This document shows, in pieces, positions 1-20,587 of a DNA stretch of 46,365 nucleotides. Position 1 is the stretch's first letter. Each line of letters begins with the position of its first letter. A program made the translations under genes and the position numbers. Location: IMG/VR virus record IMGVR_UViG_3300025886_002036, positions 1 to 46,365 of that record, one strand, 5' to 3'. The DNA is from a virus. The notes below the pieces were generated by a model, which had not been told where the DNA came from, made no database searches, and was given only the letters and a program-made list of their open reading frames with translations.

Positions 1-241
1 CTGCTGATGCAGAATCACTTCCACCATCAAACTGATGCACACTATAATCTGTATTTGAGTTTACATCAATCCACTGCGACACTTCGCCATCCATCATTAC
101 AGTCAGTCTAGCATCTGTATTTTTAATAGTATGAAGCATATTATCAAAACATGTTTTATATGAAAACCAATCTGGTCGGCTTCGGGTTGTAGTGTGTTCT
201 AGGTTATCGTTTTGGTAGTGTCTATAAAATATATGTATCAT
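1..241 (-). CDS. 5' end of an unrecognised gene, cut by the window edge
   Basis: An open frame starts at the ATG at 239-241 and runs without a stop to the left window edge, giving 80 residues that begin MIHIFYRHYQND. The start overlaps the stop of the preceding dioxygenase gene as ATGA, the usual junction in this cassette, which supports it as a real gene. The visible part has no signal peptide or membrane segment. A stretch resembling TVMMDGEVSQW is reminiscent of the start of a glycosyltransferase-A type fold, and the neighbours are sugar genes, but this is only a guess. I do not recognise the family, and the rest of the protein is outside the window. Confidence 0.6.
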   Translation of the reverse strand, partial: MIHIFYRHYQNDNLEHTTTRSRPDWFSYKTCFDNMLHTIKNTDARLTVMMDGEVSQWIDVNSNTDYSVHQFDGGSDSASA

Positions 242-981
242 TTCTTTATAGTTGGTTTGTAAATATATGGATTAGGATATCCTCTATCAATTAACTCTTG
301 GCTTTGGAGATCTGAATATCGCAAGTGGCATGACCATCGAATACTATCATCATGTATATCACCTGACTCGTGAACTAATAGTGTTGAGAAGATAGCTATA
401 TCGCCAATACTTAATTTAGGTTGTATTGATTTTTTAGCAGTCGTTGGAATATCCACACCTGCAAATCCACCTCTCTCTGTATATGGCAGTGGTCCCAATT
501 GGTGAGTACCAGGATAGAATATAACAGCTCCATTCTTCTCATCAACTTCAACTAATGGAATCCACACTACTACCGAGTTTAAACTCGATTGCATTGAAGA
601 CCAGTCTTGATGTGGTGGTGTTTTGTAGTACACTTTGTCCTTAGCTAACTTTGGATGATTGAAGTACAATACAGGACGAGTACACATTGATGGCGTTTTA
701 AGTCCTAGCTGCAAAAGCTTTTCTTTGAGTTTCGGATCTACAGCAATACTATAAAGATCCCATAACCCTTGCTGTATTGTTTTGCCGCAATTTGTGAACA
801 CTTCAAACTGCTCATTAAAGAGTCTAATCATATTCTCTTCGAAGGATTTGTGGTACCCAAAACGTACGTGTTGTTTCTTAAACACTTCTTCAGCATCCAT
901 GCGAAGTTTATTTATCTGTTTAGCTGAGAAAAAGTTCTTGATGACTGTTACTCCATCAATACTAAGATCTAGCAATTGCAT
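238..981 (-). CDS. PhyH-type Fe(II)/2-oxoglutarate dioxygenase
   Basis: Predicted non-haem iron, 2-oxoglutarate-dependent hydroxylase of the phytanoyl-CoA dioxygenase family; its substrate is unknown. The iron site is visible as H124-Q-D126 and the distal H204 (in LLVHES), followed by R215-W-S217, the usual 2-oxoglutarate-binding pair. The stretch VVVWIPLVEVDEKNGAVIFY with YPGTH is the typical core of the family. I chose the ATG at 979-981 because AGGA lies seven bases upstream and it overlaps the preceding gene by only 20 bases. An upstream ATG at 1014 (11 more residues) has no ribosome binding site and would overlap by 53. It sits in the sugar cassette, so a sugar, lipid or modified-base substrate is possible. 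Confidence 0.85.
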   Translation of the reverse strand: MQLLDLSIDGVTVIKNFFSAKQINKLRMDAEEVFKKQHVRFGYHKSFEENMIRLFNEQFEVFTNCGKTIQQGLWDLYSIAVDPKLKEKLLQLGLKTPSMCTRPVLYFNHPKLAKDKVYYKTPPHQDWSSMQSSLNSVVVWIPLVEVDEKNGAVIFYPGTHQLGPLPYTERGGFAGVDIPTTAKKSIQPKLSIGDIAIFSTLLVHESGDIHDDSIRWSCHLRYSDLQSQELIDRGYPNPYIYKPTIKK

Positions 982-1846
982 ATCCAATTCCTGTTTTTCC
1001 AAATTTATTTCCATTATAAAACATAATTAATTCGTTATTATTTTGTATTATGTAAGGATAGGCTACCATTTCACTATCCCAACCATCCGTAGATACATCT
1101 AATTCTATGTGATCATCTCTAACCCATTCACCGTTTGTGAGTGTAGACGTTTTTATCTTATATGATTGCTCTACATTATTTCTATATGAAGCTGCTCCTC
1201 GTACCGAGAACCATGCTTTATCTTTGATCATCTGAAAGGAGGATATCCCTCCTTCGCCTTCTAGCAAAGGTATAATTGTCTTATCTAAAGGCATCCAGTT
1301 AACTCCATCAATCGACTTCGCTAGCTTAATATCGTATATTGGCTCCAAACTTTTTTCACTTTTAATCCAATCTCTACAAGACAAATAATACATTGACCAA
1401 TCGCCACCATTATTAAAAACCTTTGCTGTTCCAATAAAGCCAGGTTCTTTAGTACAAGAGTTAAACACCGGTCCGTTAGAATGTTTGTACCATGTTGATC
1501 CAGCATCATAACTAATAGCTAATCCCAAGGTATTGTAGTATGGTACATCTTGTCTCAATGACCACCCAATGTAATACAAGTACTTGGTGTTGTTGTCAAT
1601 ATGAACAATATCAGTTGGCATAACGCCGTAATGATCGAATGTTCCAAGTGCACCTAGTGGTAAAATTGGCTTTGTGCATTTGTTTAGAACTTGAAACGAC
1701 TGCTGATCGACATCTATCCAAAGTGGAGTTGATCTTCCTTCGATACGTGTTGAATAGTATATACGATATACCGAATCTAATACATCAACAACTGGTAACT
1801 GTGCGTGATGTTTATTAAATATATTATGTTTCTTTATCCACTTCAT
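962..1846 (-). CDS. Beta-propeller glycosidase-like protein
   Basis: A 294-residue protein with repeated short segments of the kind seen in five-bladed propeller glycosidases and phosphorylases (GH43/GH32/GH130-like): YRIYYSTR, KYLYYIGWS with GLAISYDAG, WSMYYLSC with IKLAKSIDGVNW, and a final ELIMFYNGN with GIGYAIA. There is no signal peptide. Acidic residues near GTFDHYGVMPTD could be catalytic, but I cannot assign them. Its start shares one base with the stop of the acyltransferase gene (TAATG). With its neighbours it would act on a glycan or sugar donor made or displayed by the phage. It could also be a non-enzymatic sugar-binding propeller. Confidence 0.6.
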   Translation of the reverse strand: MKWIKKHNIFNKHHAQLPVVDVLDSVYRIYYSTRIEGRSTPLWIDVDQQSFQVLNKCTKPILPLGALGTFDHYGVMPTDIVHIDNNTKYLYYIGWSLRQDVPYYNTLGLAISYDAGSTWYKHSNGPVFNSCTKEPGFIGTAKVFNNGGDWSMYYLSCRDWIKSEKSLEPIYDIKLAKSIDGVNWMPLDKTIIPLLEGEGGISSFQMIKDKAWFSVRGAASYRNNVEQSYKIKTSTLTNGEWVRDDHIELDVSTDGWDSEMVAYPYIIQNNNELIMFYNGNKFGKTGIGYAIARS

Positions 1847-2547
1847 TAATAAACATCTATTGCTGATTTTTCTTGCTTCTTAGCAGGGAAGCCCATATAG
1901 AATCCATTTTCGTCTGTGCTCTTCGTGACAACACTACCCATGGCAATCAAGGAACCTTGTCCAACTACAATACCATCGCGAAGAGTAGCATTCACACCTA
2001 ACCAAGCTCGATCTTGAACATCACAATGTCCAGACATAACAACATGAGATGTAAAAAACACATGATCTCTAACACAACCATGATGTCCAATATGATTACC
2101 ACTCCACATCACTACATTGTTTCCAATTGTAGTATATGGTTGTATGGTGTTGTCTTCAAGAATAAAGCAGTTTTCGCCTATGGTATTATCAAAGGTAGTT
2201 GCTTTGCTTGATATGTAGGAAACAAAGCTGTATCCTAGGGACTTGCCGGTTTCGTATATAGATTTACGAGCTGTGTTCATTTTGACACCAGTCATTGGTG
2301 CAAACAAGCTAAATTTATCTGGGCTATGAGTTTGTGGTAAATCTTCAAAAACAACAACGGGATATACTTTACCATCTGGCATTGCAATATTTGAGTTTTT
2401 GTAGTATTCACGTGAAACTGTAAAAGCTTCTATATTGAACATTTTAGAGTCTTCTGTGAGATAATAATATGCTAGCTCTGCTAGATCTTTTTCTCCAAAG
2501 ATAATTACATTTGATTTGGCTTTGTGATTGCACTCAGCCAAAAACAT
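1846..2547 (-). CDS. Sugar O/N-acyltransferase with hexapeptide repeats (NeuD/PglD-like)
   Basis: Two-domain acyltransferase. The N-terminal third begins SNVIIFGEKDLAELAYYYL, matching the small nucleotide-sugar-binding domain of the NeuD/PglD family. The C-terminal half is a left-handed beta-helix of hexapeptide repeats (TIGENCFILEDNTIQPYTTI and onward), with a candidate catalytic histidine in GNHIGHHG, and ends with GFPAKK. The function would be acetyl or acyl transfer to an amino sugar. I chose the ATG at 2545-2547, just after the methyltransferase stop (TAA-T-ATG). The open frame extends upstream to 2613, but those extra residues lie within the methyltransferase gene and lack family resemblance. 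It forms an operon with the aminotransferase and WbqC genes upstream. Confidence 0.8.
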   Translation of the reverse strand: MFLAECNHKAKSNVIIFGEKDLAELAYYYLTEDSKMFNIEAFTVSREYYKNSNIAMPDGKVYPVVVFEDLPQTHSPDKFSLFAPMTGVKMNTARKSIYETGKSLGYSFVSYISSKATTFDNTIGENCFILEDNTIQPYTTIGNNVVMWSGNHIGHHGCVRDHVFFTSHVVMSGHCDVQDRAWLGVNATLRDGIVVGQGSLIAMGSVVTKSTDENGFYMGFPAKKQEKSAIDVY

Positions 2548-2548
2548 A

Positions 2549-3175
2549 TTAGCGTTTGTAAACATAAGTAGTATATTCGTATAATTTATAATCAAATCGA
2601 AATGAAAATTCACTCGATAAGTTGTTTTTTAAAAATAATCCTAAGTCATCCATCGACAAATGAAACAAATCATCTCGCTCCCAATCAACACACTTCGACA
2701 TAACATTAAAAGCCATACCACGATCACAAGATTTCCACAACACCTTTAAAGTTTCATAGAAAAATTCTGACATTTCCTGGTGTGATAAATCTTGCTTTTC
2801 TGTAAAAGTACCGTTTGCTATAACATAATCAACTTGTGGAAGTTTATTGGTAGAGAGTGTTGAGTGTATATCTGTGCAAATAAATCGGTCTTGCATATAT
2901 GGATATTTGTTTTTGCAATGCTCAATCATATCTGAGTTAATGTCTAAGCCGTAATATTTTGTCTTAACATAAAGTCCCTTCAAGTACTCATAGTAATGAC
3001 CCACGCCACATCCAAAATCTAAGATAGTAGCCTTGTCGTTGTTTAAGAAGATTTCACTCATTACCTTGTGGCGAGTGAGGGTATCTTTAAAGTTTGGCCA
3101 ATCCACGCCTAGGTGGCTATCTCCATGTTTATGAAAGCAGTCGTTGTAGTGTTTAGCTATGTTTTGATATTTCAT
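2549..3175 (-). CDS. Class I SAM-dependent methyltransferase
   Basis: A 208-residue Rossmann methyltransferase. Motif I is ILDFGCGVGHYYEYL near residue 50, and the acidic residue that binds the SAM ribose is in YYGLDINSDMI about 25 residues later. The segment VDYVIANGTFT matches motif IV and the adjacent strand. The start overlaps the end of the WbqC gene as ATGA. The substrate is not evident. In this setting, between sugar-synthesis genes, it may methylate a sugar or a small nitrogen compound rather than DNA, since no target-recognition domain or DNA-methylase catalytic motif (such as DPPY or PCQ) is visible. Confidence 0.8.
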   Translation of the reverse strand: MKYQNIAKHYNDCFHKHGDSHLGVDWPNFKDTLTRHKVMSEIFLNNDKATILDFGCGVGHYYEYLKGLYVKTKYYGLDINSDMIEHCKNKYPYMQDRFICTDIHSTLSTNKLPQVDYVIANGTFTEKQDLSHQEMSEFFYETLKVLWKSCDRGMAFNVMSKCVDWERDDLFHLSMDDLGLFLKNNLSSEFSFRFDYKLYEYTTYVYKR

Positions 3176-3882
3176 ATTAGTGTATATTTTTTTAATTGAT
3201 CTTTGATATAATCTTTATCGTGGGTGAATAGTAAGTGAAGAATTGAAGAGTATTTATCTGAAAAACAAACGTCACCCATTTGTACAAATTGTAAATTAAT
3301 GCCATCTGTGAGAAAATCCTCTTTATTGTAGAGTTTAGTTCCACCAATAGCATTTACATACACTTCGCCTCCTAATCTCTTAGTTATTTCTTTCAATCCC
3401 TCACCCTTCTTCTTGTCCGTTAAACCTATAGATGTATGTATAATCTTTGTGTTAATATCTAAGTAATCACATACCTTTTGTATGAAATGAATGTTAAACT
3501 CAGAAATAGATGTTGTTGTGTGTAAAAATGGTACATCGTCATATTCGTAATTTATAAGCTCTCCTATAGATGATTCAAAAATGGTATTAGCAATCTCCTC
3601 ATAATTTTTCTCTTTGTGATAGTTATAGTGTATTGTCTTCACCAATTTGTCAAGATACTTCTGATCGAAACTAATCTTCACATCAATACAGCTTTTATTT
3701 TGACTGCCATTGATAACTGGGATATTAAATGGTGTATTATTTTTTAATTTATTTCTTGTCATATAACTTCTTTTCATAAAGTTTACATGATCTAGATTAA
3801 CATAAACGTCTACAGCATCAATTAATTGAAAGTATCCTATATATGGAAAAAAATATGGCTGCATTATTCCTACACTTTTCAT
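3172..3882 (-). CDS. WbqC-like family protein
   Basis: Matches the WbqC-like family, found in O-antigen and other sugar-synthesis clusters, whose biochemical activity is poorly defined. The N-terminus MKSVGIMQPYFFPYIGYFQL is diagnostic, followed by DVYVNLDHVNF and the conserved region around RNKLKNNTPFNIPV. The length of 236 residues is normal for the family. It overlaps the aminotransferase upstream and the methyltransferase downstream by ATGA, which indicates translational coupling. In bacteria these proteins often sit beside DegT-type aminotransferases and NeuD-like acyltransferases, exactly as here, so it probably acts in making or attaching an acylated amino sugar. Confidence 0.85.
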   Translation of the reverse strand: MKSVGIMQPYFFPYIGYFQLIDAVDVYVNLDHVNFMKRSYMTRNKLKNNTPFNIPVINGSQNKSCIDVKISFDQKYLDKLVKTIHYNYHKEKNYEEIANTIFESSIGELINYEYDDVPFLHTTTSISEFNIHFIQKVCDYLDINTKIIHTSIGLTDKKKGEGLKEITKRLGGEVYVNAIGGTKLYNKEDFLTDGINLQFVQMGDVCFSDKYSSILHLLFTHDKDYIKDQLKKYTLI

Positions 3883-4520
3883 ATATCTCGATTAGCTTTT
3901 TTGTAAATTTCATACTTACTAAGATCTGGATATGGTAATTCAAGATCGTTGTTGGATAGTGGTTTTCCATCTTTATAAAATTGATTTATCATCAATAACC
4001 CTCTTGCGGCTAACTCTGGCATCATATAGAAATTCCAACCGATCATATCAAAATGATCTTCATGATACGAGCATTCACGCCTTCCGGAGTATCGTGCACG
4101 CTTAAACCAAAAATAAGCATCTTCATTGTCTGTAAGTATTGCACCGCCTTTAGATAGCTTAAAATGCTTATAAGGTCCAGTAAAAGAAATACACATATGG
4201 GAGCCTGGTATATACATATCGTGTGTAAAACGTAATGCACTGTCCCATACGTTAGTTGGGGTTAGTTGATAAGCACCCTTAATAGTTTTTCCTTTTGTTT
4301 TTGCAAACTTCACTTGCCCACCAGCATGAATAATCTCACACGGAACAGAAGGGTATGTACGAGACGGTATGGTAACTTCAAGTCCTACAATTTTTTCATA
4401 AGTAAGAGCTAAGAATAATGCATTAGACATATTGTCGACTGTAACAACATAAGGTGCTCCAGTATAATCAGACAATGCTTTCTCAAAATCTTCTGTTATT
4501 TTATACACTCCATTAGCCAT
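3879..4520 (-). CDS. Short DegT/DnrJ-type PLP aminotransferase
   Basis: Resembles the large domain of sugar aminotransferases of the DegT/DnrJ/EryC1 family, which form amino sugars from keto-sugar nucleotides. Visible signatures are YKITEDFEKALSDYTGAPYV at the N-terminus, VWDSALRF (the aspartate that contacts the PLP nitrogen) and SFTGPYKHFKLSKGGAILT, where the YK lysine aligns with the PLP-binding lysine, followed by RARYSGR. At 213 residues it is much shorter than the usual 350-400: most of the C-terminal domain is missing. No frameshift is seen, because the next gene starts directly after it, so the short form looks fixed. It may be a specialised or inactive variant. Confidence 0.7.
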   Translation of the reverse strand: MANGVYKITEDFEKALSDYTGAPYVVTVDNMSNALFLALTYEKIVGLEVTIPSRTYPSVPCEIIHAGGQVKFAKTKGKTIKGAYQLTPTNVWDSALRFTHDMYIPGSHMCISFTGPYKHFKLSKGGAILTDNEDAYFWFKRARYSGRRECSYHEDHFDMIGWNFYMMPELAARGLLMINQFYKDGKPLSNNDLELPYPDLSKYEIYKKANRDI

Positions 4521-4521
4521 T

Positions 4522-5994
4522 TTATATATTTTTTGATTTATTGATAAAAGTTATTAATTGCTGTTTAGACTCTTGTTCCAATTCTTGTAAATAAGGACGT
4601 ACCTTATCTATTGTACTCAATGCATAATCTATATCATCTTCACCATAAGCTATACCATACTTCATTGCTGGATTTTTTGATCGCCATAGATCCTTATCTA
4701 TGCCATCTTCTGGCATAACGATTGATAAACATCCACATAATGCTGCAATAGTTGCTATGTAGGTATTTGTGTCGTAGCAGTAGAATCTTTTTGTTGTGTT
4801 AAAAATCTTACGCAAATCAGAGAAAGAAGTGTTGTGAACTATCTCGCGAGAATTTGTAAGATCATGCACGATTGAAATTCCTTTCTCTGCGCCTTTCCTC
4901 ATTGTGTAACAGCTACCAACTCTCTCACTACCATCATCTCCAAACTTATCTAAACGAGGTTCAATAAAATGTAAGTAATTTTCTGGTTCTCCTTCCCTGA
5001 CAAGCTTGGTTTTCTTTGATGAAAAATCAAAAGCATAATTGTAAAAGTGTTTGTTGTGATATAGCCAAAAATCATCCTTTCCAAACTGTTTCTCATCGGG
5101 TCTAGGTGTATTTAAAAGATATCGAACAACACGTCTAGCATTAAGCGGATTGCCCACCACTATCTCAGGATAAATTACAATATCATTTTCGTGTAGTAGT
5201 GTTGTAAAGGATGTGTTCCAGTCTGGATTGGTGATTTGTTGGTATTCACCAAACATTGGATATAAATATACTTCTTCACCAAGTTGTTTCAATTCGTGAC
5301 ATAGCTTATGTAGCACAGTAATACCTCCAGATTTTTCGTCATAAGGTGGAGCGTATATAATATATCTATCCTTTTGATCTATCTTGTTATACAGATTATT
5401 TTGTATCTCTTGTTTTTCAATTGTTTTGTCATGACGCAAACACCATTGCTCTTCAGTAGGTAAATAACTCATGGTATGATATCCTTCTAATACTTCATGA
5501 ACTCGATTCACCCATTTTATCTTTTTATTATTCTTATAAACGCGCCATTGAAAGTCTGGAAAGTTAACCCACCCTCGATCATTAACGCCCCAATTCCATT
5601 TTGCTATATGTTGTTCAGTTAATCCATCAACAGTATTTATTCTGGGAACTTTTAACACATCAACATCATTATGTTTTAATACTTCAGGTAACACGTCCAT
5701 CATATATGTAGTAGGCATCTCATCAGCATCTATTTGAAAAATATAATCGCCGTTACACATATTAGTTAATCGATTTTTCATTTTTGAAAAGTCGGACTCA
5801 AAATCATATGAATACCAATTGACCTCTCCATTAATGGAATGTGACCTTAAATATGCTTCTATTTCACAGTCGCCTTTGCTGTCAAATTGAATTACAATTT
5901 CATCTTGCGATCGTTTATTATTAATAAGAAAATTAACTAAACGTTGTATTTCTATAAACTCGTTGCAAACTGTTATGGCGTAACTTATTTTCAT
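4522..5994 (-). CDS. Two-domain glycosyltransferase: GT2-like N-terminus, GT-B-like C-terminus
   Basis: The first 190 residues are a GT-A family 2-like transferase: KISYAITVCNEFIEIQRLV at the start and the metal-binding motif in YIFQIDADEMPT near residue 95. From about residue 210 a second domain begins with RYIIYAPPYDEKSGGITVLH, the look of a GT-B fold N-terminal half, and ends with RFYCYDTNTYIATIAALCGC and IVMPEDG. The gene therefore seems to encode two transferases, or one transferase with a donor- or acceptor-binding partner. It is followed after one base by the aminotransferase gene. The acceptor is unknown: virion protein, DNA base or glycan are all possible. Confidence 0.75.
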   Translation of the reverse strand: MKISYAITVCNEFIEIQRLVNFLINNKRSQDEIVIQFDSKGDCEIEAYLRSHSINGEVNWYSYDFESDFSKMKNRLTNMCNGDYIFQIDADEMPTTYMMDVLPEVLKHNDVDVLKVPRINTVDGLTEQHIAKWNWGVNDRGWVNFPDFQWRVYKNNKKIKWVNRVHEVLEGYHTMSYLPTEEQWCLRHDKTIEKQEIQNNLYNKIDQKDRYIIYAPPYDEKSGGITVLHKLCHELKQLGEEVYLYPMFGEYQQITNPDWNTSFTTLLHENDIVIYPEIVVGNPLNARRVVRYLLNTPRPDEKQFGKDDFWLYHNKHFYNYAFDFSSKKTKLVREGEPENYLHFIEPRLDKFGDDGSERVGSCYTMRKGAEKGISIVHDLTNSREIVHNTSFSDLRKIFNTTKRFYCYDTNTYIATIAALCGCLSIVMPEDGIDKDLWRSKNPAMKYGIAYGEDDIDYALSTIDKVRPYLQELEQESKQQLITFINKSKNI

Positions 5995-6028
5995 TTATTT
6001 ATAATATAGTAAATTTATGTTAATTATC

Positions 6029-7270
6029 CTAGACTTTTTGAAGTTTTGGAAGTTTTAATTCTACTTGCTTGGGTATACTATCAGTGCCTTTGTCAATAAT
6101 ATCCAGTAACAAATCATATTGTTTAGATACAGCAGTCTCTGTAAAATTGCTGTTAACAAAATATCTTTGACGGGTTGCCAATTGTTTCCATCGTTTATAA
6201 TTTTTAAGAACATCAATTAACATTTTCCCTGCATACCCATAATCGACTGTAAACCATTGGGCTTCTTTTAATAAAAAGTCGTTTGCTGCAGATTCATGTA
6301 TATTAGTTAACGTTCCTGGTAATGCACATATGAATTCCTTTTTCAAGAAATCTGCCTGGCCAGAATAATGTGGAGCAATGATAGGTTTACCTGTTGTAGC
6401 AAATTCTAATAACGGTCTTCCGAATCCTTCTGCTTTTGTAAAGCTAATCATTGCTTTAATTTTTTTGTCATTATATAATGCATTCATTTCTGCATTTGTT
6501 AAATCTCCATGAAGTAAATACACTGATGGTAGTTTATGTTTCTCTGCACCAAATGTATCTCGTATCTGATTGATTTTATTTTCAATCTCCCAACGATCTG
6601 TTACACTATATGTAGCCCCACTTGTTTTTATTACTAGAGCCGGCTTAGTTTTTTTGTCTTTGAATGTTTTAAAGAAACAATGCAACGCGCCGCTTATATT
6701 TTTTCGATCTTCCCCCAATTGACCCGACAACCAATGTCCACACATTAAGAATGCTTCTTTTTCTTGGATAGTAGACAATGCCGGTACTGTAGTGGTTACG
6801 TTGTTACTGTCATATATTTTATCATCAAAATATTCAGATATTACTTGTAGATTGGTAGTTATAGTTTTACCATGCTTTGCTGCGGTATCTTCAAATGTCT
6901 TTTTGGTAAATTCACTTGGAACAACAGTTATTTGCATTTGATTGATTCTGTCAATCCAGTCTGGGTTGCACACACTACCTTCTGTTCCTGCAGTGACTCC
7001 TATGTTGTATTCGCCAACGGCTTGGAACTCATTAGGCACAGTTATTTGTACCCATATGTCTGGTTTAGTTTGTAGTGGTAGTCCTATAAACTTTTGTCTC
7101 CACTCAGTAGGTATAGGATAAGTAAATGGAGTATTGCCCCAAGGCATCGAAAGCAGATTGATATCCCATTCATCTTTTTTCTTGTCCATAAATTGTTTGA
7201 TAACTTCTCGGGCGTGATGTCCGTAACCAGATTGCGTTGCTACTGGTGATGATATAACTACTTTTCTCAT
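6029..7270 (-). CDS. GT4-like glycosyltransferase
   Basis: A 413-residue GT-B glycosyltransferase. The N-terminal half starts with RKVVISSPVATQSGYGHHAR, a donor/acceptor cleft glycine motif. The C-terminal half carries FTKAEGFGRPLLEFATTGKP, where the glutamates of the E-x7-E type motif bind the nucleotide-sugar. The start codon shares one base with the stop of the preceding transferase gene, so the two are coupled. Its C-terminal residues KLPKLQKV repeat the N-terminal residues KLPKLQPV of that upstream protein, an odd feature discussed in the findings. No membrane segment or signal is visible, so it acts in the cytoplasm. Confidence 0.8.
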   Translation of the reverse strand: MRKVVISSPVATQSGYGHHAREVIKQFMDKKKDEWDINLLSMPWGNTPFTYPIPTEWRQKFIGLPLQTKPDIWVQITVPNEFQAVGEYNIGVTAGTEGSVCNPDWIDRINQMQITVVPSEFTKKTFEDTAAKHGKTITTNLQVISEYFDDKIYDSNNVTTTVPALSTIQEKEAFLMCGHWLSGQLGEDRKNISGALHCFFKTFKDKKTKPALVIKTSGATYSVTDRWEIENKINQIRDTFGAEKHKLPSVYLLHGDLTNAEMNALYNDKKIKAMISFTKAEGFGRPLLEFATTGKPIIAPHYSGQADFLKKEFICALPGTLTNIHESAANDFLLKEAQWFTVDYGYAGKMLIDVLKNYKRWKQLATRQRYFVNSNFTETAVSKQYDLLLDIIDKGTDSIPKQVELKLPKLQKV

Positions 7271-8739
7271 TATGCTATTCCTATGTTTTCGTATTGTTTT
7301 TCTTCAACTTTATTAAATGTGTATCTTGGTCGTGTCATTGGTCGACTAATTAGCAAGTCAGTCATTTCAATAATTTTGTCTGCCATTTGTTTTGCAGTCA
7401 ATCCGTTATCTAAACAAAACTGTCTGCCTCCTTCACCAAGTGTTTGTCTTGAAAACAAATCCATGTCCCACCAATAATGCATAGCATCTGCTACATCTTC
7501 TGGTCGACATCGATCGTCAAATATATATGGTGTTGGCACACTTCCTTGCAATGATCTATTGCTTGGAAATACTGGTTGAGCCCAAGCCCCATGAGTTTTA
7601 AATTTACCCATATGGTTGGTTGGAAATTCTCCATCGAATCTAATCCATTTATTGTTTTCATTAAGAAATCCACATTGGTCCTGAAGACCGCCCGTTACAT
7701 TGTTTATGATTGGTGTTCCTGCCAGCATTGCTTCTGTGCTACTTAGTCCCCAACCTTCGTTGCTGGCTATGTTCACAACTACATCTGCAACGTTATACAT
7801 TGCATTGAGATCTTGTATGGAAAGTTTAGCTTCTGAAAATACTACTTTACAGTCTGGTGCGATGTTCTTTGCAACGGCTTTTAAATCTGTACCGTTACCG
7901 TCTACTGGTGTTGTGTGCATAAGAAGCATTGTTTTGCTTCTTTGCTCTGCAGTTAACTTGTCGTTAAACATTTTAAATGCAAGTATCACATCGCCTGGTT
8001 GTTTTCTTCTAATGTTTCGGTTATTCCAAAATACTACAAACTCTGCACCGTTAGCTTCTTTTATTTGATTGTGCATAGCCAGAAAACTGGCATCGTCTTT
8101 TGGTAATGGTGTATATACGTTTTCGTCTAATCCATGTGGTACATACCCGGTGATTATGCCTTTTTGATCCTTTTCTTCTGAATCGTAGTCATATACCTCA
8201 AATCCATTCTGTTTAAGCACTTCTCTATGTATATTGTCTGACTGCTTACTGATTCCCATAATCATATCGCAACTGCCGTAAAATGGGGCGTTCCACATTG
8301 GATATGGGAGATCGTCCCAAATTGAAAGATATGAAATAGGAGTACCATATGTAGTTTTAATTTCGTGCTCTAAAGCATATAACCATGTCCAATATCTTGG
8401 ATCGGTAAAATGCATAATAACATCTGGCTTTTCTTGATTTAATATTGAGAATAGTACATTACGATCGCCATATCCTGTCCATGGAATAACTTTTACATCG
8501 GCATCCGTAACACCCGTCTCTTGAGCTACTTGTTGTGATACATCTTGACCCTGACCGTGCTCTGGGTGTTTAAGTGCTGCACCTAATTGTACCCAATCAT
8601 AATAGTGCACTGTTTTCATGATTATCTCACGACTAATAGTTCCAATGCCACTTGGTAAACGGAAATCGTCAGATAGCAATAATATTTTTTTCTTTTTTGT
8701 TTTGTTAGCTTCTACTGGTTGTAGCTTTGGTAACTTCAT
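7270..8739 (-). CDS. GT4-like glycosyltransferase
   Basis: A 489-residue GT-B glycosyltransferase. KKILLLSDDFRLPSGIGTIS near residue 17 is the N-terminal cleft motif; the nucleotide-sugar site is in NIASNEGWGLSSTEAMLAGT with the following PIINNVTGGLQD. It begins with the peptide MKLPKLQPV, which is echoed at the C-terminus of the next gene product. A strong Shine-Dalgarno (AAGGAG) precedes the start and the repeated TATAAATAT element lies 20-30 bases upstream, so this may be where transcription of the sugar cassette begins. Donor and acceptor are unknown. Confidence 0.8.
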   Translation of the reverse strand: MKLPKLQPVEANKTKKKKILLLSDDFRLPSGIGTISREIIMKTVHYYDWVQLGAALKHPEHGQGQDVSQQVAQETGVTDADVKVIPWTGYGDRNVLFSILNQEKPDVIMHFTDPRYWTWLYALEHEIKTTYGTPISYLSIWDDLPYPMWNAPFYGSCDMIMGISKQSDNIHREVLKQNGFEVYDYDSEEKDQKGIITGYVPHGLDENVYTPLPKDDASFLAMHNQIKEANGAEFVVFWNNRNIRRKQPGDVILAFKMFNDKLTAEQRSKTMLLMHTTPVDGNGTDLKAVAKNIAPDCKVVFSEAKLSIQDLNAMYNVADVVVNIASNEGWGLSSTEAMLAGTPIINNVTGGLQDQCGFLNENNKWIRFDGEFPTNHMGKFKTHGAWAQPVFPSNRSLQGSVPTPYIFDDRCRPEDVADAMHYWWDMDLFSRQTLGEGGRQFCLDNGLTAKQMADKIIEMTDLLISRPMTRPRYTFNKVEEKQYENIGIA

Positions 8740-8760: not shown

Positions 8761-8769
8761 TATAAATAT
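8761..8769 (-). promoter_or_regulatory. Repeated 9-mer upstream of glycosyltransferase gene
   Basis: Plus-strand TATAAATAT (ATATTTATA in the reading direction), about 22 bases before the start codon at 8739. It is one of seven near-identical copies at gene starts or junctions in this window. It resembles the T4 late promoter TATAAATA but is inverted relative to the genes, so its role is inferred only. Confidence 0.3.
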
Positions 8770-9167
8770 CAACCTAGTAAAACTACCGGCTTTTTTTGTT
8801 TGTTAATATTAGTATATGCTGTTTTTAAAAATGGATCCATTTTATCTTCATTGGTCATAATAACCATGTAATCACAATTTTCAGCAATAAGTTTCATTCT
8901 GTGATGCAATTGACTGAAATGATATGATTTACCATAATATGTTTTAGGCATTGCTGAATATAAGTTATAGCCTGAATAAGACGGATTATATTCCATATAT
9001 GACATTCCAAATTCCAATGCATATTTTCTAACCATATAATTTGCCCCTTCGGAACCGCCAGCACCAATAACTGTTACATTTTCATATTTAGTTTTTAGTT
9101 GTCGCAATGCTTCTTGAACTTTGCGTCGGTTCTGCCAATCTTTATTTCCTATCAATGCAACTTTCAT
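8769..9167 (-). CDS. Small SLOG/Rossmann-fold protein (YspA/DUF2493-like)
   Basis: A 132-residue Rossmann-like protein. It starts with MKVALIGNKDW, has the glycine-rich loop VIGAGGSEGANYMVRKYALE at about residues 34-53, and later DYMVIMTNEDKMDP. This resembles the SLOG superfamily, specifically the small YspA/DUF2493 group, which is thought to bind nucleotide-like ligands. Such proteins are common in phages, with unknown function. The start overlaps the end of the nuclease gene upstream by four bases. It lies at the border between the replication genes and the sugar cassette; the ligand could be a nucleotide, nucleotide-sugar or signalling nucleotide. Confidence 0.6.
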   Translation of the reverse strand: MKVALIGNKDWQNRRKVQEALRQLKTKYENVTVIGAGGSEGANYMVRKYALEFGMSYMEYNPSYSGYNLYSAMPKTYYGKSYHFSQLHHRMKLIAENCDYMVIMTNEDKMDPFLKTAYTNINKQKKPVVLLG

Positions 9168-10126
9168 TCTCGTATCCTATTTTCTTTAGGGCAATTTTCA
9201 TAGTCTGTCTTGAATACGCACCATTTACAATGTTTAGCGCCTTTTCCTGCTAATGCTAAATATTTTCTGTCTGCATTCTTGTTTCCTTCGGCATCAAAAC
9301 ATTCTTCGATAAATGCGTCAATACGCTTCTGCACTTTCTTCTGTGTAACTGTACCAGATGATGGTCTATGTTGTTGAACTCGTTTTTGTGGAAACATTGA
9401 GTTTTCTATTAGCTTTCGTTTAACTATGAAAAACTCTACATTGATATTTTCTTTTGGAATTCCATATTGTTCTGAAAAATAAGTTTTATATGTAACTAGT
9501 TGAGCTGATTTTAATGGGTCGGCTTTTTGATATTTATTCCAACCCATTCTACTTGTCTTTATATCAATTATATCAATAGTATTAGTAGGCTTATGTCGTA
9601 TAACTAAATCCATAAAGCCATACCAATATACTGAATCATTCTTAGTTGATGCTTTCGTGCATAACTCCATTTCAATACCTAACAATTCATAGTCACGACT
9701 TGAAAAATATTGACCTCGTCGTTTTTTGAACCAATCTAATATAGCAACACCATCCTGATGATATTCTTGTAATTGCAACGGATTAGAAAAATGTTCTCCA
9801 TCTTTTTCAGAAACGCATTTACTATATTCTTTCTTAATGTTATCCATTAATAAAGCCGATAAATCAATAGCATCTGCTCGTTTAACTGAGTCTGTATATA
9901 ATACTGTTAAGAAGTGCTGCATTGTCTCATGAAACGCAGTACCAAATACGGTTTCTATAGAAGATGTGAATGGAGCCAATCCGTCTATGTATGCTAGCTT
10001 CCAATTCAATGGACATCGTTCATACATACTCCATTGCGAATATGATATTCTGCGTGGCACCGACTTTGCATCTCGTACTGCTAATTTATATACTGGATTG
10101 ATATAGTTTACGCTTTCTTTACTCAT
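9164..10126 (-). CDS. RecB/Cas4-type Fe-S PD-(D/E)XK exonuclease
   Basis: A 320-residue nuclease of the PD-(D/E)XK superfamily (RecB/AddB C-terminal and Cas4 group). ISYSQWSMYERCPLNWK is the N-terminal motif, with C38 as first iron-sulphur ligand, and FGTAFHETMQHF supplies the next conserved histidine. The catalytic part is YGFMDLVIRH with the strand IIDIKTSRMGW (D-x-K). The other three cysteines are C300, C303 and C312 near the end, the expected spacing for a 4Fe-4S cluster. It lies beside the clamp-loader genes and probably processes DNA ends in recombination, repair or host DNA degradation. I see no recognisable gp46 or gp47 in the window. Confidence 0.85.
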   Translation of the reverse strand: MSKESVNYINPVYKLAVRDAKSVPRRISYSQWSMYERCPLNWKLAYIDGLAPFTSSIETVFGTAFHETMQHFLTVLYTDSVKRADAIDLSALLMDNIKKEYSKCVSEKDGEHFSNPLQLQEYHQDGVAILDWFKKRRGQYFSSRDYELLGIEMELCTKASTKNDSVYWYGFMDLVIRHKPTNTIDIIDIKTSRMGWNKYQKADPLKSAQLVTYKTYFSEQYGIPKENINVEFFIVKRKLIENSMFPQKRVQQHRPSSGTVTQKKVQKRIDAFIEECFDAEGNKNADRKYLALAGKGAKHCKWCVFKTDYENCPKENRIRE

Positions 10127-13119: not shown

Positions 13120-14376
13120 TTAAAATTTAAAAAATTTCTCGAATTGTTTAGCATCAGTGGTAGATATACTATCGCCACCAAATTTCTTATATGTCTTTTT
13201 ATATGTTGCGTATACGTTCATTGCATTGTCTGGATCTGCAAACATTTCATGTAATGATAGTATAACATTGAATAATTCTTTTGGAATAGCCGTTTCTAAT
13301 AACTCTACATGATTATGACTTAACTTGTTTATGTCTTTAACAATTTCACAATATAAATGCGTATTATGCACTACCATTCGGGGCATACCTTCTTGTGAAT
13401 ATCTGTCTAATCCAGTTGCTGTCTGACCACCTAGATATTCATAGTTAAAATCATTACATGCTGGACATCCTATACTACAAGGAACTTTTTTGCTTTTGTC
13501 AATAGTTATAACACCATCTTTACCTTGTTTAATATGAGTCTTTCTGCGATACTCAGCATTCTTTGGAAAATACAATTCAGTGAATGTCTGTGTCTTATAG
13601 TTACCAGAATGAAGATATGTTCCAAATACCGGATATTGTCCTGGTGAAGATGAGTCAGACATTAGTTGTATTCGATTGCCTGTCATTTTATTTAATAACT
13701 CTTGCAAAGTTGCCAATATAAAGAAATCTGATATTTTGCTTATTCCTAACAAGTGAATATATTCTACATGTTTCTTTTCAAACTCTCGTTCTTGAAGCAT
13801 TAGTGCGATAACATACATAAAGTCTACTAATTTTTTAGGACCTCCTATACACCAACCTTTAAAGTCAAAGTCTTTGAACTTGTGATACCATTCTTTGTAT
13901 TCTTCACTAAATGTACCTTGAATAACATTTAAGAATTTTGTTTTACCACTTTGATTCTTTTCAAACCATTTAAAATTGTCAAATGATATATCCATAGAGT
14001 CTTGGAAACGATTTTCAAATGTAACTCGGGGTGGTATATCCAAGTTTGCGGCTACGTCGCTATTAGCTTCTAACCAATGAAATATTTTTTCTCGTATTGT
14101 GCTATCCCATTTAAGGGCGCCGGTTGCAATCTGGAATCCTCCTGAATCGCCAAATACGAATGTACCATCATCTAATCCTAATTGATCTCGAAAATCCATT
14201 TTCTTGTAATGGTGACCTGCAGTTACCAGAAAGTATGGGTGTCTCCACTTTTCGGGGTATTCTTTTGCAAAGAATCGCATTGTAGTGCCATCTTCAAATT
14301 TAGTATCTTTTTTAAATGCAGATACCATGCTACCCGCAGATAATGACGGTATATATAAAAACTCTTTTCTATCCAT
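13120..14376 (-). CDS. dpdA: DpdA-like guanine transglycosylase for 7-deazaguanine DNA modification
   Basis: A 418-residue member of the tRNA-guanine transglycosylase superfamily, phage DpdA type, predicted to swap guanine in DNA for a 7-deazaguanine. The barrel signatures are GDSGGFQ at 76-82 (D77), NLDIPPR with D113, VIQG at 151-154, WCIGGP at 175-180, HLLGIS at 208-213, and D241 in MSDSSSPGQYP as the candidate nucleophile. The zinc site is C300, C304 and C307 with a histidine in HNTHLYCE near 337-340. It overlaps the glycosyltransferase gene upstream by eight bases. FolE, a QueD-like protein and QueE are encoded 6-9 kb upstream. Without experiment a tRNA-acting enzyme is not excluded, but context favours DNA. 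Confidence 0.85.
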   Translation of the reverse strand: MDRKEFLYIPSLSAGSMVSAFKKDTKFEDGTTMRFFAKEYPEKWRHPYFLVTAGHHYKKMDFRDQLGLDDGTFVFGDSGGFQIATGALKWDSTIREKIFHWLEANSDVAANLDIPPRVTFENRFQDSMDISFDNFKWFEKNQSGKTKFLNVIQGTFSEEYKEWYHKFKDFDFKGWCIGGPKKLVDFMYVIALMLQEREFEKKHVEYIHLLGISKISDFFILATLQELLNKMTGNRIQLMSDSSSPGQYPVFGTYLHSGNYKTQTFTELYFPKNAEYRRKTHIKQGKDGVITIDKSKKVPCSIGCPACNDFNYEYLGGQTATGLDRYSQEGMPRMVVHNTHLYCEIVKDINKLSHNHVELLETAIPKELFNVILSLHEMFADPDNAMNVYATYKKTYKKFGGDSISTTDAKQFEKFFKF

Positions 14377-15544
14377 TTTTCTCCTGTTCTAATAAATGTT
14401 TGCAATATGCTTCTTCATGCCACACATTGATTTCTTTGTCATAGTCATTTGCTATAATATAACCTTCCATCTGTCGACCTAAGTCTGATACAATTGGAAA
14501 TCTCATAGTTTGAAAGTTATTGCCTCGTTCAATAACATGATCAAATGTCTTTAAGCAGTCATTGACATCAAATGGTTGATATAGTTTGTCTTGTGGTATA
14601 AATTCTGGGAATGATCTAAAATTTGGATACACAACATCACAACCAAACAGAGTAGCTTCTAGTACTGTCCAAGAAACATAGTCTTGAAGAGCTGAATTAA
14701 ACTGTATTCGAGCTGTGGATAACTGTTCATAATATTCTTGTTTAGTTAAGTTATGCATACAAACAAATCTAGGTTCACGTTTTTCTAATTCATGCATCGC
14801 CCCTAATACGCCAGGCAAAGAAGATTTAAATTCTTTACCAGATGTGGTAACGTGCCATGTCCAATCAGGATTATCTGCTAGGAATGATTTTGCTACTTCC
14901 AACATAAAAAATGGATTCTTTTCTTTGTCTAATCTACTAGAATATACAACAGTATTCTGTCGCTGATCTAATGGATTATATTTTGGATTTTTGTCTAATG
15001 CCATTTCTGCATGTAATGGAAGCGACACAACGTGTATTGGGGCTTCGAATCCTGCTTGTCTGAGTTGTTCTTTATGAATAGTAGATCCAACAAATATACC
15101 CGTCATTCGTTTGTCTAATCCTAACTCGAAACCTCGCATCCAGTTTTTCATTGGATATGTAAAGTCATATTCATCTACACTTTGTGCGTGAAGCATTGAA
15201 TAAAATTTTAAATCAATATCATATAAATCTATTGCATATAATATAGACTCAATACCCGGATGCCAATAATCTTGTAAGAATATTATGTCTCCGTCTTTAA
15301 CTTCATCTCGTTGTAACATATCCAAGAAGTTAGCACATTGACTCATTGCAAATTTGCCTCTGCCTACAGCATCTAATACAGCTCCGATCTTTATTTGCTG
15401 ATCAGGATCAAAGTCTCCTTCAACGTCTATAAATTCTAATTGATCTGCATATGGCTTGAAAGTAGCCGGCATCCATTCTTTTGATAGCTGATATGTATAT
15501 CTAGCTTTTAGTGGCTCTAGTCCAAAATAAAATAATTTTCTCAT
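14369..15544 (-). CDS. GT-B glycosyltransferase coupled to dpdA
   Basis: A 391-residue protein with the C-terminal glycosyltransferase domain of the GT4 group: VVYSSRLDKEKNPFFMLEVA near residue 220, VCMHNLTKQEYYEQLSTARI, and SWTVLEATLFGCDVVYP carrying the donor-binding glutamate. The N-terminal half starts MRKLFYFGLEPLKARYTYQL. I chose the ATG at 15542-15544 because it forms an ATGA junction with the T-fold gene upstream; the frame is open 12 codons further, but inside that gene. Its stop overlaps the dpdA start by eight bases. Unlike the transferases of the left cassette it is embedded with a base-modification gene, so a DNA base could be its acceptor. That is inference. Confidence 0.8.
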   Translation of the reverse strand: MRKLFYFGLEPLKARYTYQLSKEWMPATFKPYADQLEFIDVEGDFDPDQQIKIGAVLDAVGRGKFAMSQCANFLDMLQRDEVKDGDIIFLQDYWHPGIESILYAIDLYDIDLKFYSMLHAQSVDEYDFTYPMKNWMRGFELGLDKRMTGIFVGSTIHKEQLRQAGFEAPIHVVSLPLHAEMALDKNPKYNPLDQRQNTVVYSSRLDKEKNPFFMLEVAKSFLADNPDWTWHVTTSGKEFKSSLPGVLGAMHELEKREPRFVCMHNLTKQEYYEQLSTARIQFNSALQDYVSWTVLEATLFGCDVVYPNFRSFPEFIPQDKLYQPFDVNDCLKTFDHVIERGNNFQTMRFPIVSDLGRQMEGYIIANDYDKEINVWHEEAYCKHLLEQEKNG

Positions 15545-15885
15545 CTTTCTATTATTGCTCCATTTTCCCAATCTTCCCATACTTCTACTTTGTACAGATA
15601 TCCCGGATTATTATTTAATAACCATTCTCCAATGTCTTCACAACTCATTCTACCAAATTCTAATATATTACCACCAAAATTAGTTCTTAACTGCTTTTTA
15701 ATGCGTCTTTGCATCAAGATAAACTCTTCATCTCTATCTGTATGACTTACTTTTGCATAACAACGAAATCCAAATTGATGTCTATGTCTATCTGATAAAA
15801 ATGCTACTTCTGGAAACACTTCTTTAGCTTCTGGCCAACAATGAAAGCCTTCTGCTGTAAATGATACTACTACACTATATTTCAT
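15541..15885 (-). CDS. Small QueD/PTPS-like T-fold protein
   Basis: A 114-residue protein with the pattern of 6-pyruvoyl-tetrahydropterin synthase/QueD. H15 lies in VSFTAEGFHCW, and H34-R-H36 in SDRHRHQFGF stands where QueD has H-G-H, so three zinc histidines are spaced as in E. coli QueD (16, 31, 33). RMSCEDIGEWLL resembles the family's helix after the loop, and VEVWEDWENGA its C-terminal strand with the base-binding glutamate. The catalytic cysteine and LDH motif of QueD are not seen, so it probably does another reaction or binds a purine or pterin. ATGA junctions couple it to the gene upstream and to the transferase downstream. The family assignment is by eye. Confidence 0.5.
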   Translation of the reverse strand: MKYSVVVSFTAEGFHCWPEAKEVFPEVAFLSDRHRHQFGFRCYAKVSHTDRDEEFILMQRRIKKQLRTNFGGNILEFGRMSCEDIGEWLLNNNPGYLYKVEVWEDWENGAIIER

Positions 15886-18887: not shown

Positions 18888-19123
18888 ATTGATTCCTTTT
18901 TAAGATTGCATATGTTCCATATGCCGTAAATATTGATTGTTATAATAACAAAGCTTAACACCATGTGACTAATATTATTAATATGAATATCATATACTAC
19001 CCAACCAATGTCTCCAATTATCCATGAAAACATCGCAAGTTTTGTTAGTGACTTAGCATTTAAAATGTATCCAATTAATACTAATAGTGTACTACCCCAG
19101 CCTAACAGTTCCCACAAGTGCAT
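18869..19123 (-). CDS. Small three-helix membrane protein (CBU_0592/SemiSWEET-like)
   Basis: An 84-residue protein with three predicted membrane helices: about residues 5-22 (LLGWGSTLLVLIGYIL), 28-48 (LAMFSWIIGDIGWVVYDI) and 53-72 (HMVLSFVIITINIYGIWN). The pattern L-G-W-G-x-L-L-x-L-x-G-Y-x-L-N-A at the start resembles the CBU_0592-like/SemiSWEET group of half-transporters. It overlaps the GroES-like gene upstream by 22 bases and the polymerase gene downstream by 19. A transport or membrane-remodelling role cannot be told from sequence alone. Confidence 0.65.
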   Translation of the reverse strand: MHLWELLGWGSTLLVLIGYILNAKSLTKLAMFSWIIGDIGWVVYDIHINNISHMVLSFVIITINIYGIWNICNLKKESIWRIKQ

Positions 19124-19524
19124 ATAACCGCAATTTCTGATTCTCTAATTAATGAATATTGTTCGTCGTCTAAAACAATATCTTTATTTTCACCTAAGTT
19201 AGATTTATACACATATACAGTGTCTCCAATTTTTACTGACATTGGGATACGAGCTCCTGTTTGTGTAAATAATCCGTCTCCTGTTGCTACTACTTTTCCT
19301 AGCACGAATGCCATGTCTCGATCAACGAGGATAATTCCTGATTTAGTTTTTTCTGCAGTTTTTTCTACTTTTAGCAATACTTGATCGCCCATCGGTTTCC
19401 AGTTCATAACTTGTTCTTTTTTTATTTTTAATGGATTCTCCTTACCCGTTAACTCTTCATAATACGGATTCAATTCTCCGGTTTGAGGATCATGGGTTGG
19501 TATTTCCAATTTACCTTTTGCCAT
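19102..19524 (-). CDS. GroES-like co-chaperonin (gp31 analogue)
   Basis: A 140-residue protein whose last 100 residues match GroES: WKPMGDQVLLKVEKTAEKTK, the mobile-loop segment KSGIILVD that would contact GroEL, GKVVATGDGLF, VKIGDTVYVYKSN and a closing strand. T4 gp31 plays this role in capsid-protein folding. It has a 40-residue N-terminal extension (KLEIPTHDPQTGELNPYYEE) absent from bacterial GroES, and ends with the cysteine pair CTCGNC. It would cap the host GroEL, possibly to fit a larger phage substrate. The adjacent thioredoxin gene shares the region. Confidence 0.9.
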   Translation of the reverse strand: MAKGKLEIPTHDPQTGELNPYYEELTGKENPLKIKKEQVMNWKPMGDQVLLKVEKTAEKTKSGIILVDRDMAFVLGKVVATGDGLFTQTGARIPMSVKIGDTVYVYKSNLGENKDIVLDDEQYSLIRESEIAVICTCGNC

Positions 19525-19579: not shown

Positions 19580-19816
19580 TCATAACCTTTGTATATTAGC
19601 AATAGTTACACTATTTCCTACTAGTCTTGAAACCTCGTTGCCATTTTCATTGATTCGAATAAAACAAGGAATATTTCTAACATTGTAACGATTAGCCGTT
19701 GCCATATCTTGATCAATATTAATTGTTCGGAATGGAACGGTTAACTGATTCAGTTTAGGCTTTAATAATTTACATGGTCCACACCATGGTGCTGTAAAAT
19801 ATAGTAATTGACTCAT
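19580..19816 (-). CDS. Thioredoxin/glutaredoxin-like protein
   Basis: A 78-residue thioredoxin-fold protein with the redox motif WCGPCK in YFTAPWCGPCKLLKPKLN, the cis-proline region NVRNIPCFIRI and a short C-terminal helix. It is smaller than bacterial thioredoxin (about 105), as is common in phages. Its likely role is to supply electrons to the ribonucleotide reductase encoded upstream, whose C-terminal cysteine pair needs re-reduction. It shares the base of a TAATG junction with queE. Confidence 0.9.
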   Translation of the reverse strand: MSQLLYFTAPWCGPCKLLKPKLNQLTVPFRTINIDQDMATANRYNVRNIPCFIRINENGNEVSRLVGNSVTIANIQRL

Positions 19817-20586
19817 TACACACCTCTTTCTGTATTAAATGCTATGATATGATCTCTACCGGTCATGTTATAACCATGTTCAGCTACCATTTCAAATACT
19901 TTTGGATACATTTCAATCAATGTTTCTCTTGTATCTCCTGCCGGCATTATATATGTCTTATGCTTTGGAATTTTATGCATTACCCGGAAATCTTCTATTT
20001 CTTTAAGATTTTCTTCGGTACCATCCCAGACAGGCTTATAATGATAGTCATGATGATATTTTATTGTTTGCTTGATTGCGTCATGATTGAGTCGCAGTTT
20101 ATTGTGTTGCGTAACCATTCTTTCATCTACTATCTTTCCTGCAGGAGTTTTAGTTCCTACAACTGGAATGCTATTGCTAAATTTAGGTGAAAGTGATACT
20201 AAATCAAATGGCATTGGAGTTTCTATAAAATGACTACCTTCTGTTTCTATTGTAGTTATAATACTTCGCTTAAATGCAAATTGCGTTAATTCATTCATTA
20301 AAGCAGGATGCATTGTGGGAGAACCTCCTGTAATCATCATTTCTTTAACTTGTGGATTAGCATCATATATGTCTACAATGTCTTGAAAGCAGAATGTGCC
20401 TTTTTCTGGATGGATACTTGTGTACCATGAGTCACACCAACCTCCTTCACCAAAATAACATCGATGAGTACATCCGGTTGTTCTTACTGCTATTGTGGGC
20501 CGACCGAATCGGCTTCCTTCACTTTGCACACATCTGTATACTTCTAATACAGGTAATCTTTTACTATAATCTTCTATTCGTTTCAT
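19816..20586 (-). CDS. queE: QueE-like radical SAM enzyme (7-carboxy-7-deazaguanine synthase)
   Basis: Converts 6-carboxy-tetrahydropterin to 7-carboxy-7-deazaguanine (CDG). LPVLEVYRCVQSEG near residue 11 and the GG motif MITGGSPTMHP are typical of QueE. The iron-sulphur cysteines are C39, C43 and C51, spaced C-x3-C-x7-C instead of the usual C-x3-C-x2-C, an eight-residue loop YFGEGGW being inserted. I chose the ATG at 20584-20586, directly after the preceding stop, because homology begins just after it; the frame is open upstream to 20634. It is part of folE-queD-x-queE. No QueC follows, so the pathway in the window ends at CDG. Confidence 0.88.
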   Translation of the reverse strand: MKRIEDYSKRLPVLEVYRCVQSEGSRFGRPTIAVRTTGCTHRCYFGEGGWCDSWYTSIHPEKGTFCFQDIVDIYDANPQVKEMMITGGSPTMHPALMNELTQFAFKRSIITTIETEGSHFIETPMPFDLVSLSPKFSNSIPVVGTKTPAGKIVDERMVTQHNKLRLNHDAIKQTIKYHHDYHYKPVWDGTEENLKEIEDFRVMHKIPKHKTYIMPAGDTRETLIEMYPKVFEMVAEHGYNMTGRDHIIAFNTERGV

Positions 20587-20587
20587 A

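Follow-up and report, generated by a model that had tools for sequence, protein, structure and literature searches.

Clusters of sugar-related genes in marine phages have been on record since at least 2010, and the available text of PMC3037559 poses the question of whether they serve a function or are filler. The same question is raised by a row of nine close-packed open reading frames (ORFs) on the minus strand, at 238-8739 of the IMG/VR virus record IMGVR_UViG_3300025886_002036. The whole record, 46,365 bases, was analysed and is called the window here; its gene set is that of a myophage (tail sheath, clamp loader, DNA polymerase, helicase and recombinase). What does such a row do in a phage, and to what would its product be attached? 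This analysis showed that it is a real, functional-looking modular sugar locus, in which a constant core of three glycosyltransferases (GTs) is followed by exchanged cargo, and that its commonest recurring part is a new-looking half-size aminotransferase (sAT).

The division into core and cargo emerges from comparison with relatives. The order RFC ... Exo-SLOG-GT4b-GT4a-GT2 is conserved (Exo, exonuclease; GT4b and GT4a, GT-B-type enzymes; GT2, the third transferase domain), and the genes past GT2 vary. The best 80 of 192 GT4b relatives found in viral contigs were compared together with the window (81 loci; L numbers label the loci or sequences of relatives). Locus pairs, which are not mutually independent, were binned by GT4b identity, and the mean shared fraction of four genes upstream was set against that of four genes after GT2. 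In the 98–100% bin, which probably includes repeated assemblies of one virus, these values are 0.98 (n=39) and 0.82 (n=14; none shared in 2). At 90–98% (56 pairs), they are 0.87 (n=55) and 0.25 (n=15; none in 8), and at 80–90% (390 pairs) 0.82 (n=349) and 0.10 (n=137; none in 99). The two remaining bins give 0.82 (n=1474) and 0.09 (n=605; none in 455) at 70–80%, and 0.72 (n=933) and 0.14 (n=310; none in 190) at 60–70%. Furthermore, GT4b identities track those of both Exo and GT4a, with rho 0.87 in each case (95 and 97 loci, respectively).

The boundary lies just behind GT2. L066 and L079 are 98.6% identical in GT4b and 96% in the next gene; their likeness ends at the GT2 domain, and none of the four cargo genes compared is common to both. 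Similarly, the DNA of the window ceases to resemble that of L004, L006, L007 and L008 at 3343–3369 nt from the GT4b start, which is the end of the GT2 domain (~5390); the L007 and L008 alignments have an additional internal gap. The GT2 domain is a separate gene of ~206–209 residues in L004, L006, L043, L048, L066 and L079, and in the window it carries ~280 extra fused residues, which we read as the first cargo element. One of the three transferase genes named in the original prediction does contain a PF00535 domain, but its 490-residue protein is a core domain joined to a cargo half. A Pfam scan gave no match for this half, which looks GT-B-like by eye only. A further candidate for a cargo swap, L003 (GT2 82% identical), was dropped because its contig stops before the junction.

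Within the cargo, six genes form a recurring module in the same order: sAT, WbqC, methyltransferase (MT), NeuD-like acyltransferase, propeller (Prop) and PhyH dioxygenase. The complete order is found in six distinct sequences (the window, L173, L168, L167, L165 and L093), and five of the six genes are in order in five more (L174, L158, L154, L119 and L083). This makes 11 distinct sequences, window included, with at least five genes, and two more have four. L172 also has the full order, but its sAT is the same as that of L168 and the two were counted once. Where present in the ten other rows, the genes are 64–91% (sAT), 45–58% (WbqC), 51–65% (NeuD), 32–63% (Prop) and 55–61% (PhyH) identical to those of the window. 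The wider records of L165, L167 and L172 contain no GT4b homologue, so the module recurs across different phage backgrounds, including some large phages without the core; in L165, a two-domain GT2 protein precedes sAT. Neither the core/cargo architecture nor this module had been noticed in the original prediction.

The commonest member, sAT, is found well beyond these rows. Of 505 candidate stretches, 504 encode a relative (the best 80 were used); for WbqC, 38 relatives were found. Seven named-phage records contain sAT. Flavobacterium phage immuto accounts for four of them (73.8% identity), uncultured huge phages for two (68.8% in a 595-kb and 33.0% in a 642-kb genome) and Synechococcus phage S-SCSM2R for one (32.2%). 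Immuto, whose sAT homologue is QQO91778.1 and whose GT4b homologue is immuto26A_90, has a related cluster, in which an exonuclease, two GT-B-type genes and GT2 are accompanied by one full-length and one half-size aminotransferase, a PglD-like gene and an SDR gene. In S-SCSM2R, sAT (L228:9001-9588) is annotated as 3-amino-5-hydroxybenzoic acid synthase, and its neighbours are GTs, 2OG (2-oxoglutarate) oxygenases, a radical SAM gene and an inosamine amidinotransferase. At 100 distinct viral sAT loci, the partners are a NeuD-like gene (73), a member of any of seven GT clusters (82), SDR (39) and WbqC (36).

The original prediction had named an aminotransferase, and the protein is indeed DegT-like with the presumed pyridoxal phosphate (PLP) lysine and aspartate; its half size, ~210 residues, had been missed. 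Pfam DegT matches residues 7–80 only (51.5 bits, cut-off 19.8), and all sAT matches in Pfam, PHROGs and NCBIfam are partial, with no family found there for the short form. A hidden Markov model of the sAT family recovers 149 ORFs of at least 150 residues, which span 195–258 residues (median 211) and all score at least 137 bits; DegT proteins of 378–426 residues score 27–37 bits and a 71-residue fragment 53 bits. L087, L090, L091 and L197 (108–131 residues) and the 71-residue L227 fragment were left out of this count; L087 reads through from a non-ATG start, and L090 and L091 match it in length and score. Truncation or frameshift of a longer DegT was rejected as an origin of the short form, since all 149 ORFs fall in the narrow range given.

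Across 151 sequences, some of them from genome contigs and named phages, K118, D93 and A95 are invariant, S112 is kept in 150 and N163 in 145, so that the Schiff-base lysine and the pyridine-nitrogen aspartate of DegT enzymes have counterparts throughout. In a profile–profile alignment with ten full-length DegTs taken from the same loci, K118 falls on their lysine segment, and sAT lacks ~50 residues before the serine–lysine segment as well as the C-terminal domain. DegT enzymes usually have a histidine or glutamine at the equivalent of sAT position 96, which contacts PLP O3'. In sAT, this position is leucine in 125 of 151 sequences, and neither histidine nor glutamine is among the five commonest letters (150 of 151).

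The AlphaFold2 (AF2) model of sAT (predicted local distance difference test, pLDDT, 93.8; predicted template-modelling score, pTM, 0.91) matches DegT enzymes along its whole length. Foldseek relates it to DegT/DnrJ/EryC1/StrS enzymes (GDP-perosamine synthase 3dr7/3bn1, and 7b0d; E 1e-9, TM by query 0.66). Comparison with 8gyi gives VIA Z 19.9 and a root-mean-square deviation of 3.1 over 204 aligned residues. The PLP lysine and aspartate of the DegT enzymes are aligned with those of sAT. These enzymes have ~360–440 residues, and sAT is without the full large and small C-terminal domains (~360–400 residues) typical of them, the small domain and a beta–alpha unit being absent. BFVD contained no close half-size match (best A0A5Q2W5Y7, 316 residues, E 9.3e-14, TM by query 0.72), and a search of titles and abstract openings in a set of open-access papers found neither a half-size DegT in phages nor this core/cargo locus. 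Between sAT and its L083 relative, the non-synonymous rate (dN) is 0.11 and the synonymous rate (dS) 1.42, which points to purifying selection; dS is saturated or undefined against L050 and L100.

The remaining genes of the row belong to recognizable families (Table 1), and the earlier calls of PhyH, methyltransferase, WbqC and transferases agree with Pfam, and with PHROG for GT4a. All nine ORFs claimed for the row were found. Spacing at the eight junctions is −53, −1, −17, −4, −4, +1, +34 and −1 nt, with overlap at six. Position 238 does not end the row, which continues into an ORF that the contig end truncates; its family, cluster 9, is present at 29 of 124 sAT loci and 28 of 100 viral ones. 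The acyltransferase probably starts at an ATG at 2565 instead of the GTG at 2613, and PhyH probably at Met12 (~981), since its relatives have a stop codon at PhyH position 8–9. The SLOG gene lies between the exonuclease and GT4b in nearly all close relatives listed. Elsewhere in the window, a GroES-type co-chaperonin gene is found at 19102-19524.

Table 1. Features of the sugar locus and its constant flank in the window
Feature	Role in the locus	Length (residues)	Position (strand)	Evidence
Exo, PD-(D/E)XK-type exonuclease	Constant flank		9164..10126 (-)	PHROG 69 8.4e-27; synteny
SLOG (YspA-like) protein	Constant flank		8769..9167 (-)	PF10686 29.9 bits; synteny
GT4b, GT-B glycosyltransferase	Core, constant	489	7270..8739 (-)	Glycos_transf_1 (PF00534) 31.7 bits, cut-off 26.4; PHROG 2170 4.9e-21
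GT4a, GT-B glycosyltransferase	Core, constant	413	6029..7270 (-)	PHROG 2170 (glycosyltransferase) 2.1e-16; Glycos_transf_1 24.3 bits, under cut-off 26.4
GT2 domain	Core, last constant element	~1-202 of 490	5390..5994 (-)	Glycos_transf_2 (PF00535) 25.1 bits, cut-off 23.3, residues 6-134
C-terminal half of 490-residue protein	First cargo element, fused to core GT2		4522..5390 (-)	
sAT, half-size DegT-like sugar aminotransferase (putative)	Cargo module	213	3879..4520 (-)	Pfam DegT; fold; residue conservation
WbqC-family protein	Cargo module	236	3172..3882 (-)	PF08889 4.5e-43, 148.1 bits, cut-off 21.3
MT, SAM-dependent methyltransferase	Cargo module	208	2549..3175 (-)	PF13649 2.8e-10, 41.2 bits, cut-off 27; conserved DFGCG motif
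NeuD/PglD-like left-handed-helix acyltransferase	Cargo module	239 from ATG	1846..2565 (-)	Hexapep 46.9 bits, cut-off 27; TIGR03570 6.3e-39 (under cut-off)
Prop, five-bladed propeller, GH43/GH130-like fold	Cargo module	294	962..1846 (-)	AF2 model; Foldseek
PhyH-type Fe(II)/2OG dioxygenase	Cargo module		238..981 (-), likely start Met12 (ORF from 1014)	PF05721 6.9e-17, 62.9 bits, cut-off 22
Cluster 9 gene	Further cargo	first 80	2..241 (-), off contig end	

The acyltransferase, which has conserved H158, H161 and H162, resembles NeuD/PglD as originally proposed, but its score of 133.7 places it outside NeuD_NnaD (TIGR03570; NCBI cut-off 160.8; the L149 relative reaches 159.0). PhyH has the HxD...H...R motif, and its iron and 2OG residues (H135, D137, H215 and R226) are at least 95% conserved among 15 rows; against the Sporadic carbohydrate cluster oxygenase model (TIGR04324), it scores 34, far under the cut-off of 150. 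For WbqC, a literature search found no function. The propeller has no Pfam match, and its AF2 model (pLDDT 94.0) has the fold of five-bladed GH43/GH130-type enzymes; the best Foldseek hits are a glycoside hydrolase (E 6.5e-11, TM by query 0.73) and a mannoside phosphorylase (2.9e-10). In sequence counts, D71 (30 of 30), E134 (29 of 30) and D257 (27 of 30) are conserved and are candidates for the catalytic acids.

The genes also appear intact. Distinct homologues of at least 40% identity number 95 for sAT, 13 for WbqC, 9 for MT, 17 for NeuD, 13 for Prop, 9 for PhyH, 90 for GT4a, 96 for GT4b and 72 for Exo, and inspection found no internal stop or frameshift in those of any of the nine families; the disrupted genes in relatives that would have spoken against a working cassette were thus not seen. 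In-frame stops were read as start or stop shifts rather than disruptions, because all lie within ~25 residues of an alignment end.

As originally suggested, this gene content fits the building of an acylated, methylated amino sugar. Membership of the cargo offers a hint as to where the sugar would go. By a crude hydropathy counter, 821 of 854 cargo proteins (at least 120 residues) are free of hydrophobic segments, and three proteins of 148–187 residues reach the highest count, four; none of the 854 has the more than four segments expected of a multi-pass flippase or polymerase of Wzx/Wzy-type loci. The same counter finds at least six segments in 12 of 395 genome-contig proteins, from 6 of 28 loci, and in 5 of 3359 proteins of all viral loci. 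A Pfam scan of 141 cargo representatives gave 128 families. Methyltransferases, GT2, SDR, PhyH, hexapeptide and acetyltransferase families are among the 25 commonest of these; flippases, polymerases and oligosaccharyltransferases are not. Because the cargo examined is without multi-pass membrane proteins, these data favour a cytosolic acceptor.

We therefore weigh a modular cytosolic pathway that adds a variable amino-sugar glycan, most likely to virion proteins, and consider the chances that this is correct to be about even. GT4b, GT4a and the GT2 domain would lay an invariant glycan stem on a constant acceptor, and the swappable cassette would make and attach the outer, strain-specific sugars, in this phage one of the 4-amino type. 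The starting keto-sugar nucleotide could be host-made or come from an SDR dehydratase gene possibly located past the contig end. After amination by sAT, the NeuD-like enzyme would N-acylate the sugar, which the methyltransferase, WbqC and the Fe(II)/2OG dioxygenase would tailor further; a possible role of the propeller is to trim a linkage or rearrange it. Transferred to virion proteins in the cytosol, the glycan would vary the outer chemistry of the particle.

Several points weigh against this pathway. The hydropathy counter behind the export argument is crude. The cassette lies in a replication operon with 7-deazaguanine genes, away from the virion genes. Relatives of sAT are found in genome contigs, including Prochlorococcus single-cell genomes and a 919-kb archaeal (Woesearchaeota) contig (L221, L222, L223 and L217), so that the enzyme class also occurs in cells and is not phage-specific. 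The low correlation of sAT with GT4b identities (rho 0.16, 41 loci; reached by 18 of 500 permutations) is partly range restriction, since it covers the best 80 of 504 sAT relatives, and it was for this reason not used to prove transfer; for sAT and Exo, rho is 0.10 (35 loci; 78 of 500 permutations), and sAT and NeuD identities are better correlated (rho 0.63, 17 loci). Finally, the order in which the enzymes act, the identity of the sugar, virion protein as its acceptor and the benefit are all inferred.

The operon context makes DNA a serious rival to virion protein as the acceptor. The core GTs could have as their substrate a hypermodified base, either a 7-deazaguanine or a hydroxymethyl pyrimidine, with the cassette varying the sugar to escape restriction, and diverse DNA glycans of viral GTs have been reported (Pyle et al, 2024, as cited in the available text of PMC12619734). 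In the window, QueE, QueD (PTPS) and FolE, by their sequences a phage 7-deazaguanine pathway, are encoded at 19816-22050 in the same operon as the cassette. A TGT/DpdA-like gene (PF01702 4.7e-5, below cut-off) overlaps a GT-B-like gene (14369-15580) within 13120-15580. The TGT-like gene is 71–97% identical in 9 of 16 records, and its adjoining GT 71–96% in four and 24–32% in five, a pattern that would be compatible with variable glycosylation of a 7-deazaguanine base. Immuto carries FolE, QueC, QueD, QueE, QueF and DpdA. FolE is present in 11 of 16 records and in 11 of the 12 that carry GT4b, although this co-occurrence may merely reflect shared ancestry. QueC gave no match in 9 of those 12 records and is present in those of immuto, L173 and L100. 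Four GT4b-less records that carry the module or sAT (L165, L167, L172 and L117; 99–296 kb, possibly fragments) contain no FolE, QueC or TGT-like gene, which argues against the idea that deazaguanine generally serves the module as acceptor. Thymidylate-synthase-family genes (ThyA and hydroxymethylases taken as one group) occur in 10 of 16 records, including three of the four without GT4b, and not in the window; a hydroxymethyl pyrimidine may thus still be the modified base. We regard glycosylation of DNA as possible rather than probable.

A second alternative concerns sAT itself and is compatible with any acceptor: the protein could be a degenerate, non-catalytic DegT relic that serves as a binding or scaffolding subunit, with the amino sugar coming from elsewhere or nonexistent. 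Its catalysis is not certain, because the small domain and the beta–alpha unit are absent and leucine replaces the histidine or glutamine, and 12 of 100 viral loci have a full-length DegT in the neighbourhood of sAT. The lysine, aspartate, serine and presumed partner-subunit asparagine positions are nevertheless all kept, and we consider a relic unlikely.

Remodelling of the host surface, in which the enzymes would change lipopolysaccharide or capsule during infection and exclude competitors, appears more unlikely still. It is the interpretation that the available text of PMC7029224 gives to glycosyltransferases in a hypervariable island of pelagimyophages, and host flippases could be borrowed. 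However, no flippase-, polymerase- or oligosaccharyltransferase-like multi-pass protein was seen among the 854 cargo proteins, and a constant acceptor-side core would be unexpected if the variable glycan of the host were the acceptor. The original prediction had left host surface and decoration of the phage side by side; the lack of lipid-carrier export machinery weakens the former. Functionless filler or relic genes, raised as "stuffer DNA" for cyanophage clusters in the available text of PMC3037559, are very improbable given the intact frames, invariant presumed catalytic residues, low dN relative to dS and recurring gene order.

The proposed virion-glycan pathway can be placed among known systems, likened to them here as far as the cited texts describe them. 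The lipopolysaccharide-type clusters of the cyanomyophages P-SSM2, S-SSM7 and S-SM2 (PMC3037559) are also accessory sugar-synthesis and transfer genes in myophages, but they occupy another site, and the window locus has a defined three-GT core with exchanged cargo. The host recognition cluster of pelagimyophages shares the hypervariable island with glycosyltransferases, but is flanked by VrlC and gp14 and accompanied by tail fibre genes, whereas the window locus follows the exonuclease in the replication operon (PMC7029224). Bacterial O-antigen and capsule loci likewise combine constant flanks with an exchanged middle and contain WbqC, NeuD-like and DegT-like genes; window-type cargo differs in being phage-borne, with no flippase or polymerase seen. 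Mycobacteriophages carry glycans on capsid and tail-tube proteins (Freeman et al, 2023, via PMC12691614 and PMC12619734), and the available descriptions mention no swappable cassette.

For the old question of whether phage sugar clusters are working or filler, these data argue for function and point to a cytosolic acceptor. A more far-reaching proposal, which we offer tentatively, is a phage serotype system, in which a constant three-transferase core and exchangeable cassettes would give nearly identical phages different coats, and sAT would represent a new minimal (~200 residues) class of fold-type-I PLP sugar aminotransferases shared by hundreds of phages from the environment, the largest of them megaphages. 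Such an enzyme would be unusually small for its fold. The recurring small enzyme and an isolate lineage, immuto, offer direct measurement of activity and glycans. If virions do carry the glycan, these phage particles would have an exchangeable surface chemistry comparable to bacterial serotypes.

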